A stretch of 64,000 nt of DNA from Desulfurobacterium thermolithotrophum DSM 11699 (GTDB lineage: Bacteria > Aquificota > Aquificia > Desulfurobacteriales > Desulfurobacteriaceae): assembly GCF_000191045.1 (NCBI RefSeq), contig NC_015185.1, positions 248,001-312,000 on the forward strand, given 5' to 3'. The position numbers and the translations under genes are program-made. Numbering within the stretch: the stretch's first letter is position 1; each line of letters starts with the position of its first letter. The notes under the pieces were generated by a model, which saw only the letters and a program-made list of their open reading frames with translations, was not told the origin of the DNA and made no database searches. Positions 24,202 to 29,152 of this stretch are shown here, in pieces.

Positions 24202-25236
24202 CTAACTAAAAGTGTTTGTTACTTTAACGACTTTAAGAAGGAGCTTGTAAGGTTTACCCTCTTCTATAACAGAATTTGCAAGTTCAATTCCTTCTTCTAC
24301 AGAACTCACTTTCTCCGCTGCAAGAAGTGCAAAAGCAGCATTTAGGAGAACAACGTCTCTCTTTGCTCCTTTTTCCTCTCCTGTCAATATTTTTTTCACG
24401 ATTTCTCTGTTTTCTTCTAAAGTTTCTCCGCCTTTTAATTCTTCAAAAGAAGCTTTTCTAATTCCAAAGTCCTCTGGAGAAACTATGTAGCTTTTTATAT
24501 CTCCATCCGAAATTTCTGTAATTTTTGTCATATCACAAATTGTTATTTCATCAGTTCCATCTTTTCCATGAACGATAAAGGCCTTCTTAGTTCCAAGTTT
24601 TAAAAGCACTTCAGCAAGTTTTTCTGTTAAGTAGTCAGCAAAAACTCCCATGAGTTGTCTTTTAGCTCCAGCCGGATTCGTCATTGGACCAAGAAGGTTA
24701 AAAACCGTTCTAATTCCAAGTTCTTTTCTCGGTCTTACAACCGTTGCCATTGCAGGATGAAATCTTGGAGCAAACATAAATCCAAAGTTTGTTTCTCCTA
24801 TACACTTTGCAACTTGCTCTGGTGTTAGATCTATTTTCACACCAAAAGCTTCTAAGATATCTGCACTTCCACACTTGCTTGAAACAGACCTATTTCCGTG
24901 CTTTGCAACAGGCACACCGCAGGCAGCAACAACAAGAGCAACGGTTGTAGATATGTTAAATGTTCCCTTTAAATCTCCACCGGTTCCACAGGTGTCAACT
25001 ATTCTCTCCCTTATATCTTTGGAAAGTGGAACTTTCAGGCTCTTCTCTCTCATTACAGAAGTTGCACCTGCTATCTCCTCTGTTGTCTCTCCCTTTGATC
25101 TGAGAGCAACGAGGATTCCGGCTATCTGAACGTCTGTCAGTTTTCCATCCATTATTTGTGTAAAAAGATTTCTTGTTGCCTCAAAAGAAAGATTTTGCTT
25201 TTCAACTAATTTATTTAAAACCTCTTTAACTTCCAT
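24202..25236 (-). CDS. trpD: Anthranilate phosphoribosyltransferase
   Basis: 344 residues. VDTCGTGGDLKGTFNIST (PRPP binding), KHGNRSVSSKCGSADILEAFG, and HPAMATVVRPRKELGIRTVFNLLGP are the TrpD signature blocks. It transfers phosphoribosyl to anthranilate in tryptophan synthesis. It is the last gene of the yjbQ-to-trpD operon, 15 bp after the DUF123 gene, and separated from any other trp gene in the window. Confidence 0.95.
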   Translation of the reverse strand: MEVKEVLNKLVEKQNLSFEATRNLFTQIMDGKLTDVQIAGILVALRSKGETTEEIAGATSVMREKSLKVPLSKDIRERIVDTCGTGGDLKGTFNISTTVALVVAACGVPVAKHGNRSVSSKCGSADILEAFGVKIDLTPEQVAKCIGETNFGFMFAPRFHPAMATVVRPRKELGIRTVFNLLGPMTNPAGAKRQLMGVFADYLTEKLAEVLLKLGTKKAFIVHGKDGTDEITICDMTKITEISDGDIKSYIVSPEDFGIRKASFEELKGGETLEENREIVKKILTGEEKGAKRDVVLLNAAFALLAAEKVSSVEEGIELANSVIEEGKPYKLLLKVVKVTNTFS

Positions 25237-25251
25237 CTTCTTCTCCGCCTG

Positions 25252-25689
25252 TCAGATTTTGAAAATTTTAACATTGAATTTTTCAAGGAGCCGTTTTCTT
25301 AAGTTTTCAACTTCACTAACTCTAAAAAGGTGAGATGGACAGTTACAGTCGGTTGAACCAAAACCGATAACAGGTTTTTCTGTTTCAGATATTGAATTGG
25401 CTAAGGAACATTCGAGCTTTCTATCTTCGATAATCCAGATCTCAAGAACTTTAAAAGAGCTGTCCGTTGAAATGAAATCTAAGTGCCAGTGCTTTTTCTT
25501 TTTCTTTCTGAGATGTCTTGAAATTCTTTTTCTTAAACCACCACTTCCAAAGGCTGAACCAACATAAACATAAACACCTTTCTTGAGTAAAAACTGCTTA
25601 CCGCTTTTAACTTTGAACAAAAGAGTGTCTATCACAAAAAGAATGCAATAAGTTCCTTTAGTTTCTGGAAGTTCAAAGTTGAAGCTCAT
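25252..25689 (-). CDS. DUF123 / GIY-YIG-like nuclease family protein
   Basis: 145 residues. GTYCILFV, YVYVGSAFGSGGLRKRISRHLR, HWHLDFI and CSLANSI, then GFGSTDCNCPSHLF, match the DUF123 domain, a minimal GIY-YIG relative found alone or fused to other nucleases. The Y-V-Y-V-G-S stretch and the following arginine are the expected active-site core. Its start overlaps hepT by 17 bp, so it is translationally linked to the toxin-antitoxin pair. Function is not known. Confidence 0.75.
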   Translation of the reverse strand: MSFNFELPETKGTYCILFVIDTLLFKVKSGKQFLLKKGVYVYVGSAFGSGGLRKRISRHLRKKKKKHWHLDFISTDSSFKVLEIWIIEDRKLECSLANSISETEKPVIGFGSTDCNCPSHLFRVSEVENLRKRLLEKFNVKIFKI

Positions 25690-26137
25690 TAAAGAGTCTT
25701 TCTAAGTATGGAAGTTCTGAATGAATTTTGTTTAATGTCCAGGCTATTTTTTCATATTCATCTTCATATTCATGAGCTATTGAATTCCGAATTTCACGGA
25801 GTTCAAACCATTTTTCTGGAGTAATTTCAAAACCAAACTTTTCTAAAAGGTTAATTACATCAATAATTGGAAGATGCTCTACATTTTCACCTTTTAGTGT
25901 AAGGTAGGCTCTAAGTAACCTTCCAAGAGAATCCTGAAGTTTTGAAAACCTATAGGCTATCTGATCCAAAAGTAGTACTCCTTCTTCTTTATTAAGAAGG
26001 TCAGCAACGTCCATAGCAGCAATTGGGAGCTCTTTCAGAGCTCCTAACTTCTCAAATGCCTGTTTTAATCGAAACAAATGTTTTTGAATTTCTGAATGGA
26101 GCTTATTATATTTTTGTCTTATAGCTTCATCGGTCAT
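25673..26137 (-). CDS. hepT: HEPN-domain toxin HepT
   Basis: 154 residues, all-helical. EIRNSIAHEY near residue 119 contains the RX4HXY motif (R-NSIA-H-E-Y) of HEPN ribonucleases. Family knowledge: HepT is a tRNA- or mRNA-cleaving toxin silenced when its partner MntA adds AMP to the motif tyrosine. The start codon overlaps the mntA stop (ATGA) and the end overlaps the DUF123 gene. Confidence 0.85.
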   Translation of the reverse strand: MTDEAIRQKYNKLHSEIQKHLFRLKQAFEKLGALKELPIAAMDVADLLNKEEGVLLLDQIAYRFSKLQDSLGRLLRAYLTLKGENVEHLPIIDVINLLEKFGFEITPEKWFELREIRNSIAHEYEDEYEKIAWTLNKIHSELPYLERLFNELQL

Positions 26138-26433
26138 AGTTCAACCCCAGTCAGCATGGCTACTTTTTCTATATCCCTTTCAGGATCCCTCTGAATTATA
26201 ACGTCTATCTTTCTATCTCCGATTTTCTGTTTCAGTTTAATAAGAAACTTTAACTTTTTCTCAAAAGGATCCTCTTTATCTTCTGGAACAATGTAGAGGT
26301 CTATATCTCCTCCTTTTCTTGAAAGGTCTGCTCTGCTACCAAAAAGAATAATCTTAGTTCCTTCTCCAAAAACATCTTTTGCTGTTTCTTTAATAGCTGA
26401 GACTTCCCGGTCACTCAGCCTAACCTTAGCCAT
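26134..26433 (-). CDS. mntA: MNT-type nucleotidyltransferase antitoxin MntA
   Basis: 99 residues from the ATG at 26433, which lies in the last codons of hemG behind AAGGAGA; the frame extends upstream only as an antiparallel shadow of hemG. LFGSRADLSRKGGDIDLYI is the GS-X9-DxD active-site motif of minimal nucleotidyltransferases, with a third acidic residue in KIDVIIQ. It is expected to modify and neutralise HepT. Its overlaps with hemG and hepT place the pair inside a metabolic operon. Confidence 0.87.
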   Translation of the reverse strand: MAKVRLSDREVSAIKETAKDVFGEGTKIILFGSRADLSRKGGDIDLYIVPEDKEDPFEKKLKFLIKLKQKIGDRKIDVIIQRDPERDIEKVAMLTGVEL

Positions 26434-27796
26434 CAAGAATTCTCCTTGCAACCTCTTCTGCAGCCTTTGTGCAGTCGTTGACTCCAACTCCTGTATAGGC
26501 ATTGTTGCAAAGATAAAGACCAGGATATTTACTAATTAGTCTAAATATCTTTTCTACTCTTTCAGCATGTCCAACAGTATAGTGTGGAATACCTTTTTCA
26601 TGCTTGAAGACTTTTATTTTCTCAGGATAATGGCGAATTTTCATTATTCTTCTGAGTTCTTTGAGAGCAATGTTTACAAGCTCCTCATCTGGCAGGAGTG
26701 CAAGTTCAGGTTGTCTTGCACCACCTATCATGACTCTTATTAAAGCTTTCCCACTTGGAGCTCTATTTGGAAAAACTGAACTGTCCCAGAGAGCTCCAAG
26801 GATTTTTCTCTTTTCACTCCTTGGAACTAAAAAGCCAAAACCATCAAGGTCGTGTCCAAGTCCTTTCTTTTCAAATCCAAGAGCAACAACGGAAATCGGA
26901 GAGTACTCTATCTCTGAAAGGAGCTTAGAGAGCTCAAGATTTAAATCGTTTAAAAGTTTAGCTGTTATATAGGCAGGAGTTGAAAAAACAATAGCATCAA
27001 AAGTTTCTTCAAAAACTTCATTTTCCTTTTTGTACTTTACCTTCCAACCTTTTTCTATCCTATCAAGACCTAAAATTTCTACCTCTGTTTCAATAGAATC
27101 TCCCAGAAACTCACTTAAAGAATCAATTAAATCTTTTACTCCACCTTTAAAGGAAGTAAGAACGCCTCCGGGACCTGCTGGACCACTTTTCTTTCCACTC
27201 TTTTTAGCTTCTTTCATTTTTGCGATAAGGCCTTTTATAAGACCACCGTACTGTTTTTCAAGGTAATAGATGGCTGGAAAGGCAGCTTTGAGGCTGAGTC
27301 TATCAGGGTCTCCAGCAAAAATTCCTGCAACCATAGGGTCTAACAATTTTTCAAGTGCTTCTTCTCCAATTCTTCTTTTTGCAAATTCAGAAAGACTTTC
27401 ATCTATATCCTCTTTTTTTGGAGGAACTAAAAACTCTCCTACAAGCCTTAACTTTCCTTTCCATGAAAGAAGATAGGAGGCAAGAAATGCAATTGGGCTT
27501 TCTGGAAGTCTTACAAGTCTTCCATTTGTGTAGATAAACCTTTTTCTTGCTTTATCAGAACTCCTATAGAGCTTACTCTCAATTCCAAGCTCTTTTACAA
27601 GGTTTAAAGTGTAAGGTTTTCCATCAAGAAAACCGTTTGGTCCTGTTTCTATAATGTAACCATCTTCATGGATTGTTTTCATTTTACCGCCAACAGTCTT
27701 TTCCTTTTCAAAAACTTTTACTTCTGCTCCACCCTTTTTTAAATAGAAAGCTACAGAAAGTCCTGAAATTCCTGCTCCTATAACAGCAACTTTCAT
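26426..27796 (-). CDS. hemG: Protoporphyrinogen oxidase (HemG/HemY type, FAD)
   Basis: 456 residues. The N-terminal FAD-binding motif VIGAGISGLSVAFYLKKGG, then ETGPNGFL and a central SFKGGVKDLIDSL region, fit oxygen-dependent-type PPOX; the C-terminal LYLCNNAYTGVGVNDC loop completes the Rossmann domain. It oxidises protoporphyrinogen IX to protoporphyrin IX at the membrane. It is 15 bp downstream of hemH and overlaps mntA by 8 bp. Confidence 0.9.
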   Translation of the reverse strand: MKVAVIGAGISGLSVAFYLKKGGAEVKVFEKEKTVGGKMKTIHEDGYIIETGPNGFLDGKPYTLNLVKELGIESKLYRSSDKARKRFIYTNGRLVRLPESPIAFLASYLLSWKGKLRLVGEFLVPPKKEDIDESLSEFAKRRIGEEALEKLLDPMVAGIFAGDPDRLSLKAAFPAIYYLEKQYGGLIKGLIAKMKEAKKSGKKSGPAGPGGVLTSFKGGVKDLIDSLSEFLGDSIETEVEILGLDRIEKGWKVKYKKENEVFEETFDAIVFSTPAYITAKLLNDLNLELSKLLSEIEYSPISVVALGFEKKGLGHDLDGFGFLVPRSEKRKILGALWDSSVFPNRAPSGKALIRVMIGGARQPELALLPDEELVNIALKELRRIMKIRHYPEKIKVFKHEKGIPHYTVGHAERVEKIFRLISKYPGLYLCNNAYTGVGVNDCTKAAEEVARRILDG

Positions 27797-27811
27797 AAAA
27801 GTCCTCCAACT

Positions 27812-28738
27812 TTATTCTTTTCTTAGCTTATCAATTTCTGAGGATAAAGCTTTTATTAAAAGTAAATTTTTGTGATCTAATTTAACTCTTTTATAATTTA
27901 AGCCTAACTCATTTGCTAATTCTCCATACTCCACGTCTAACTCGTAAAGAGTTTCTATATGTTCAGAAATAAAGCTTATTGGAAATACGAGCACTTCTTT
28001 TCTTTTTTCTTCTTTAAGTTCTTTTAACACTTCCTCAGTTGACGGCTCAAGCCACTTGATTGGTCCAACTTTACTTTGGTAAGAAATCTTATAAGGAATC
28101 TCTTTAAACTTTTCCATTACCAATTTTACTGTATCTTCAATTTCATTAACATAAATATCTCCATTCTCAACTATGTATTTTGGGAGACTATGAGCTGAAA
28201 AAAGAATGAAAGGTTCTTTTAAATCTTTTAGTTCCTTCCCTATAGATTTTTGAATCCACTCAATGTAATAGGAATTTCTACACCACGACTTTATAAAAGT
28301 GTAATTAATTTTTTTACTTAAAAACTTTTCTACATCTCTAAAACACGCTCCTGCGGTTGCAACTGAATACTGTGGATACAATGTAAGAACGTAGAGTCTA
28401 TCTGGACTGTATCTTTCAATTTCCTTAACAACTTCCTTAAGTAAGGGTTTGGAATATAACATCCCAAGAAAAGTTTTGATACCTGTTTCCTTTTCAAGAA
28501 GATTTGCCTGATCTAGTGCATATCTAACAAGAGGACTTCCTCCACCTATTGCTTCATACTGAGGTTTAACTTTGGGAGTTCTAAATGTAGAAATCAAATA
28601 AGCCAAAGGTTTTTGGAGAAATGCCGGAACTCCAAAGTTTATGAGATCTCTATCGGAAAAAAGCCTGAAAAGGAAAGGTTTAATTTCATCTAAGGTGGAA
28701 GGAGCTCCCATATAAGTTAATAGTATAGCTTCTCTCAT
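27812..28738 (-). CDS. hemH: Ferrochelatase
   Basis: 308 residues. LLTYMGAPSTLDEIKPFL at the N-terminus, LYPQYSVATAGACF, ILFSAHSLPKYIVENG with the metal-inserting histidine, and ISFISEHIETLYELD define HemH, which inserts Fe2+ into protoporphyrin IX. It starts immediately after the yjbQ stop codon and precedes hemG. It completes heme synthesis needed for the cytochrome bd oxidase at 50-53 kb. Confidence 0.94.
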   Translation of the reverse strand: MREAILLTYMGAPSTLDEIKPFLFRLFSDRDLINFGVPAFLQKPLAYLISTFRTPKVKPQYEAIGGGSPLVRYALDQANLLEKETGIKTFLGMLYSKPLLKEVVKEIERYSPDRLYVLTLYPQYSVATAGACFRDVEKFLSKKINYTFIKSWCRNSYYIEWIQKSIGKELKDLKEPFILFSAHSLPKYIVENGDIYVNEIEDTVKLVMEKFKEIPYKISYQSKVGPIKWLEPSTEEVLKELKEEKRKEVLVFPISFISEHIETLYELDVEYGELANELGLNYKRVKLDHKNLLLIKALSSEIDKLRKE

Positions 28739-29152
28739 CTAATCTCCAATTATTTTTATGATAACTCTTTTTGGTCTTTGACCATCAAATTCAGCATAGA
28801 AAATTTCCTGCCAAGGGCCTAAATCTAACTGACCGTTAGTTATTGGAAGAACTACTTGAAGGTGAACAAGTAAATTCTTAAGATGAGCATCTCCGTTATC
28901 TTCGCCAGTTCTGTGGTGTTTATAGTTAGGTTTAAACGGAGCTAGTCTTTCAAGCCATTCCCAAATATCTTCGTGAAGACCTTCTTCATCGTCCTGAATA
29001 ATAACTGCTGCAGTTAGATGCATTGCAGAAACAAGGCAGAGACCTTCTTTAACGCCAGATTTCTTAACAGCTTCTTTTACTGTGTCTGTTATTCTGATTA
29101 AATCCCTTCTTTTTTGTGTATTAAACGTCAGGTATTCTGTATAAGCCTTCAT
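28739..29152 (-). CDS. YjbQ/UPF0047 family protein
   Basis: 137 residues. [39 protein letters not shown] and [16 protein letters not shown] are the conserved metal-binding-like blocks of the YjbQ family, linked to secondary thiamine-phosphate synthase activity in some bacteria; true role uncertain. It is the first gene of the leftward operon, divergent from fabD, so the operon promoter lies in 29153-29252. Confidence 0.8.

Follow-up and report, generated by a model that had tools for sequence, protein, structure and literature searches.

Two-gene modules pairing a minimal nucleotidyltransferase (MNT) with a HEPN protein provide the closest described systems for the locus analyzed here, namely HepT/MntA of Shewanella oneidensis and HEPN-MNT of Legionella. 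According to the sections on such pairs in two studies, their HEPN toxins are RNases silenced by AMPylation (PMC7641770, PMC11586414). In type VII HepT/MntA the RNase toxicity of HepT is neutralised by tri-AMPylation, and the MntA motif as given in the relevant part of the first study is GSX10DXD (PMC7641770). A second line of work concerns COG1833, which a 2006 survey, in the portion dealing with it, placed in the GIY-YIG superfamily. There, the authors describe a cluster rich in His and Cys at the C-terminus as well as fusion to EndoIII in Methanococcales, and name Thermotoga maritima and M. jannaschii (PMC1564403).

We followed up a sequence-only reading of a window of 64,000 nucleotides from Desulfurobacterium thermolithotrophum DSM 11699 (NC_015185.1, positions 248,001 to 312,000), in which relatives of both groups lie side by side. 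In this deep-sea bacterium, seven minus-strand genes follow each other head to tail with a largest gap of 15 nt. The directon starts with a UPF0047 gene (28739..29152; PF01894, 134.1 bits) and continues with hemH for ferrochelatase (27812..28738; TIGR00109, 269.5 bits) and hemG for protoporphyrinogen oxidase (26426..27796; TIGR00562, 377.4 bits), the host gene upstream of the pair. Next come mntA for an MNT and predicted antitoxin (26134..26433; 99 aa), hepT for a divergent HEPN protein and predicted RNase toxin (25673..26137; 154 aa), a DUF123 gene of the COG1833-type GIY-YIG family (25252..25689; 145 aa; PF01986, 112.1 bits, E 1.9e-32), and trpD for anthranilate phosphoribosyltransferase (24202..25236; TIGR01245, 440.9 bits). 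UPF0047 and hemH abut with a gap of 0, and 15 nt separate hemH from hemG as well as DUF123 from trpD. The start of mntA lies inside hemG with an overlap of 8 nt, hepT overlaps mntA by 4 nt and DUF123 overlaps hepT by 17 nt, which bears out the arrangement of overlapping genes ahead of trpD that had been read from the sequence. The accompanying label of a heme/tryptophan operon fits hemH, hemG and trpD and is otherwise loose, since just those three among the seven tested genes carry it. The pair is embedded in one directon with hemH-hemG and trpD, and co-expression with them is therefore likely. A promoter scan was uninformative (6 sites, with 11.5 expected by chance), and PADLOC returned weak candidate-defence matches only, the best being PDC-S09 for MntA (3.9e-5) and PDC-S14 for DUF123 (7e-4), with none for HepT. 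A longer mntA frame of 122 aa starting at 26502 is unlikely: the start is placed at 26433 because the whole open frame totals 99 aa in two relatives, G122 and G130, the lengths of the other alignment rows being weaker evidence as the script picked starts near the expected one.

MntA exceeds the cut-off of PF01909 (NTP_transf_2) with 32.5 bits versus 21, and its residues G32, S33, D43, D45 and D77 are invariant in 22 aligned rows. The motif spacing is GSX9DXD, one residue short of the published form, and the protein stays under the NF047752 cut-off (23.7 of 60 bits). A PDB sequence search with MntA gave a designed knot protein and both a chimera and chains of HP0242, at E values from 0.00035 to 0.26; these were taken as chance because each match spans about 40 residues that lie mostly outside the motif. 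The genome holds five PF01909 matches in all. One further MNT gene (G000:C1:1351745-1352044, equivalent to L239:2246-2545; A2 profile, 2.1e-24) lies near two ORFs, one matching Uma2 below threshold and one resembling a sugar transferase by eye; no HepT-profile match was found among ORFs of at least 60 aa in its 5-kb stretch.

On the HepT side, the RX4HXY motif (R117-x4-H122-x-Y124) is invariant in 23 of 23 aligned rows. The window protein scores under the cut-offs of PF18730 (21.1 vs 27.1) and TIGR01987 (21.7 vs 55.8) and has no PF01934 or PF08780 match at E 0.01. At an E limit of 0.01, PF08780 matches 20 of the aligned rows and PF01934 matches 17; the lowest E, 5.5e-8, belongs to a PF08780 match that may pass the cut-off of that family, and all eight homologues given a cut-off check fall under both. 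A sequence search of the PDB yielded a single weak Argonaute match (E 0.2). No relatives of HepT were matched on plasmids, none of 27 pattern matches in viral contigs was confirmed, and no PF05168 HEPN was found in the D. thermolithotrophum genome.

An AlphaFold model of HepT built from three sequences reaches a pLDDT of 90.8, and its first five Foldseek rows are chains of 8xeh (HEPN-MNT), 1wty and 1jog (HI0074), with 7ae6 in row 7, all at probability 1.00; no match reaches E 0.001, none of these rows has an E better than 0.02, and row 6 is a designed helical protein with the same probability. With VIA, the model aligns to the AMPylated HEPN toxin 8xdj with a Z of 14.2 (rmsd 2.4 over 128 residues, VIA-align) and to the MntA-HepT mutant 6m6u with a Z of 12.8. 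In thirteen of the first fifteen titles a HEPN toxin, a nucleotidyltransferase or one of the pairs SO_3166-SO_3165 and MntA-HepT is named, and rank 16 is an unrelated designed protein at Z 9.6. Helical bundles score high by themselves. Because of this general tendency, the case for a HEPN protein is carried by motif and fold jointly.

Compared with the Shewanella and Legionella systems, the window pair has adjacent MNT and HEPN genes as a mobile two-gene operon, RX4HXY in HepT, the G-S...D-x-D signature of type VII MntA plus a further Asp and, in the model, a HEPN-like helical-bundle fold. Unlike strict type VII HepT/MntA, it shows GSX9DXD in place of the exact GSX10DXD spacing, a HepT under the curated HEPN cut-offs and a housekeeping directon as its setting, with PF01909 alone passed among the curated NCBIfam and Pfam models. 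Given this spacing, we file the pair as an HEPN/MNT module working like type VII. RNase activity and AMPylation are predicted for it by analogy with HepT/MntA.

Our preferred reading, to which we assign a probability of roughly 0.86, is that a two-gene HEPN/MNT cassette lodged behind hemG and that DUF123-trpD is independent of it. A type VII-like mntA-hepT cassette would have inserted directly behind hemG and would be read as part of the host operon through co-transcription and translational coupling. HepT would act as a HEPN ribonuclease kept silent by MntA, which would AMPylate Tyr124 beside the RX4H site, and DUF123 would have come to sit behind hepT in this lineage through rearrangement. 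The main points counting against this reading are the scores of HepT and MntA under curated cut-offs, the GSX9DXD spacing and the Foldseek E values above 0.001. The same divergence would fit a pair that is no longer an active toxin-antitoxin system and persists as a neutral passenger or in another nucleotidyl-transfer role; decay in relatives points the same way, and other MNT-HEPN roles are left open in the part of Makarova 2009 that treats them (PMC2701414). We consider loss of activity unlikely, however, in view of the invariant motif residues of both proteins and dN/dS values against G122 of 0.09 for mntA and 0.07 for hepT, both from two sequences in a block that may have recombined. The corresponding values are 0.16 for DUF123 and 0.07 each for hemG and trpD.

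A survey of 22 family genomes, within 136 genomes of the phylum, shows the pair behind hemG in several states. It is intact in six (G000, which is D. thermolithotrophum, G122, G130, G116, G117 and G118), lacks hepT in G119, has both genes truncated in G121, is reduced to a hepT 3' scar in G131 and is cut inside mntA by a contig end in G120. In the other 12 no pair was seen, as judged from ORF maps and searches and, in G115, G129, G133 and G135, by also reading the junction. The G131 scar comprises 51 nt at 86% identity with the end of the G130 hepT, and its best 45-nt identity is 38, where 200 shuffles gave at most 26. Two Uma2 genes, 65% identical to each other, lie behind hemG in G131 (L138/L119) and behind the hemG-linked pair in G130 (L120). 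G131 also carries two long opposite-strand ORFs before DUF123, one with FG-GAP/PQQ-type propeller repeats.

The gene that follows also varies. In G116, G117 and G118 there are 4-nt overlaps on both sides of the pair, with hemG before it and with a gene of 441 aa after it; Pfam, run on the G116 copy only, identifies the latter as purB for adenylosuccinate lyase. A gene of 440-452 aa comes directly after hemG in G115, G129, G132, G133, G134 and G135, and at each of the junctions that were read (G115, G129, G133 and G135) the start of this gene resembles that of purB. In searches across the phylum, 67 of the 136 genomes gave a HepT relative and 71 gave an MntA relative. In family member G127 the pair lies between a BPL/LplA (biotin/lipoate-ligase)-type gene and an HD-domain gene, and elsewhere in the phylum its neighbours include argH with a HAD hydrolase, TldD/PmbA, RmlD, IMPase (inositol monophosphatase), a GFO/IDH oxidoreductase, APS kinase and Uma2 genes.

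These contexts bear on the proposal that toxin-antitoxin expression is tied to heme and amino-acid synthesis. The shared directon, with the likely co-expression that follows from it, upholds the general part of that proposal, and the special tie to heme is weakened by the unrelated neighbours elsewhere in the phylum and by the decayed copies. A stronger version would make the pair a heme-linked regulator kept behind hemG, its dose following heme synthesis. Such a role could explain why this site holds a pair, partial copy or scar in 10 of the 22 genomes, which come from three genera (g1, g2 and g6), and why the family pairs cluster together in the tree discussed below. It is nevertheless very unlikely, as no pair was seen behind hemG in 12 of 22 genomes, G127 has its pair at another site, G119, G121 and G131 lost parts in three different ways, and other Aquificota keep the pair beside unrelated genes. 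The pair is thus a dispensable cassette riding a host operon, its toxicity being predicted, since its contexts vary in the phylum and decayed or partial copies occur behind hemG while DUF123-trpD is kept. A text search found no literature joining toxin-antitoxin systems with a housekeeping operon.

How often the cassette arrived is a related question. In a joined MntA and HepT tree of 21 rows the family pairs group together, G127 included, with support of 92/94. A single clade of hemG-linked pairs has a p-AU of 0.171 and is thus neither rejected nor demonstrated. On the hemG tree the pair label needs several changes, so the cassette may have inserted once long ago and then been lost many times, or may have inserted repeatedly. 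Comparison with G122 further shows a block (about 24,600 to 26,900) in which identity is mostly 85-94% per 150 nt, versus about 59-87% upstream. This block covers the 3' part of hemG, mntA, hepT, DUF123 and much of trpD, and is possibly an exchanged recombination tract. Separately, identity to G122 is only about 59-60% in the stretch 27753-27960, which takes in the last part of hemH and its junction with hemG, the neighbours being far more conserved.

The sequence-only reading had also suggested that the DUF123 protein may be a third component of the toxin system acting on nucleic acids, and conservation of the mntA-hepT-DUF123 triplet was one check it proposed. DUF123 matches occur in 26 of 136 phylum genomes, including all 22 of the family, and DUF123 adjoins trpD in 22/22. 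The pair is directly beside DUF123 in 2/22 (G000 and G122), and in G130 one Uma2 gene intervenes. DUF123-trpD stands without the pair in the stretch examined in 19/22; for G128 this stretch reaches only about 0.5 kb upstream of DUF123, where the contig stops. In the 11 genomes of genera g2, g5 and g7 the gene preceding DUF123-trpD encodes 322-331 aa and is tsaD in both copies tested (G118 and G133). Four DUF123 loci outside the family (L047, L052, L053 and L057) have no pair within about 1.5 kb.

A wider scan gave a similar picture. At the best 80 of 540 relatives of DUF123 in GTDB, MntA and HepT were found at two loci, which re-find G122 and G130, and at one of the two a gene separates the pair from DUF123; the scan used subfamily profiles at E up to 10 on ORFs of at least 50 aa in flanks of up to 4 kb, and could therefore have overlooked a strongly divergent MNT/HEPN pair. 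Conversely, DUF123 lies within the fetched flanks, some of which end at contig ends, of 3/30 HepT loci, the window included. A three-component system, in which DUF123 acts alongside MntA-HepT as nuclease effector or modulator, would account for the tight overlaps on a common strand, the strict triplet kept in G122, the low dN/dS of all three genes and their position within one block of raised identity. Against these stand the neighbourhood counts, on which the idea was rejected, with DUF123-trpD found without the toxin pair in most relatives, the very outcome that the sequence-only reading had named as refuting it. Overlaps with flanking genes are moreover not special to DUF123, because the pair forms a similar overlap with purB elsewhere and adjoins varied genes. 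We regard a third component as extremely doubtful; the neighbourhoods suggest that DUF123 is a chance neighbour outside the toxin system.

What DUF123 encodes can be approached through its family. Its only match in the D. thermolithotrophum genome is the window gene, which features GTY and YVG boxes, a central Arg, Glu93, and a C-terminal Asp-Cys-x-Cys and Ser-His-Leu cluster. In a 56-row alignment, in which 55 of 57 candidate ORFs join the window protein, Y42 and E93 are invariant and Y14 and R55 reach 90% or more. We take Pfam DUF123 to be COG1833, given the shared features and the presence of Thermotoga maritima and M. jannaschii both in the survey and among the matches of our control set. 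The Pfam match over the cut-off, together with the GIY-YIG Tyr, Arg and Glu and the Cys/His cluster, agrees with this family; the window gene differs in being bacterial, stand-alone, on the same strand as trpD and free of EndoIII or SfsA fusion. The structure model (pLDDT 94.2) has no significant Foldseek match, Slx1 chains appearing among weak rows only, and its best VIA rows are weak as well (At-HIGLE Z 5.1, Slx1 Z 4.5, with a CRISPR Cascade chain close at 4.2); a PDB sequence search gave no match. Judged from sequence, DUF123 is an independent, putative GIY-YIG-family nuclease gene with trpD as its constant partner in the family. Elsewhere, DUF123 is fused behind SfsA in a Thermodesulfobacterium (L191:3260-4420) and a Spirochaetota MAG (L205:3353-4474), joining a GIY-YIG-family domain to the Pfam SfsA 'RE domain', and an Aquificota-like DUF123 gene occurs on a contig titled Gammaproteobacteria MAG (L171), a title that may be a mislabel. 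No literature was found on this family under the name DUF123, as judged by title, or linking GIY-YIG and SfsA in a text search.

The purB junctions offer one idea of how such a cassette may persist. The final hepT codons of G116, G117 and G118 run through AGGGAGG just before the purB ATG. AGGGAGG stands at this position also in G133 and G135, which have no cassette, and G115 and G129 show another GGAGG form. The cassette might hold the translation start of the next housekeeping gene hostage: with the final hepT codons of the purB lineage containing the purB Shine-Dalgarno sequence and overlapping its start codon, the toxin gene could be lost only by deletions sparing the tail. Two cases fit, namely G119, which keeps the hepT tail although the rest of hepT is gone, and G131 with its hepT 3' tail behind hemG. 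Because the tail is equally purB's own leader, G119 alone is no proof of a deletion scar, and the idea, drawn from few genomes, is quite unlikely. If true, a hostage start site would be a route to fixation of toxin-antitoxin systems inside operons apart from addiction.

Taken as a whole, the locus is an ordinary HEPN/MNT cassette in a housekeeping directon, beside a DUF123-trpD pair that occurs throughout the family and is unrelated to it. This corrects an appealing three-component reading and teaches that gene overlap in compact genomes does not equal functional linkage. Attention is also drawn to an Aquificota branch of HepT whose window member and other tested members score under curated cut-offs. 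Finally, the series found behind hemG across the family, from none through intact, antitoxin alone and truncated pair to scar, is useful for studying the gain and loss of HEPN/MNT modules.
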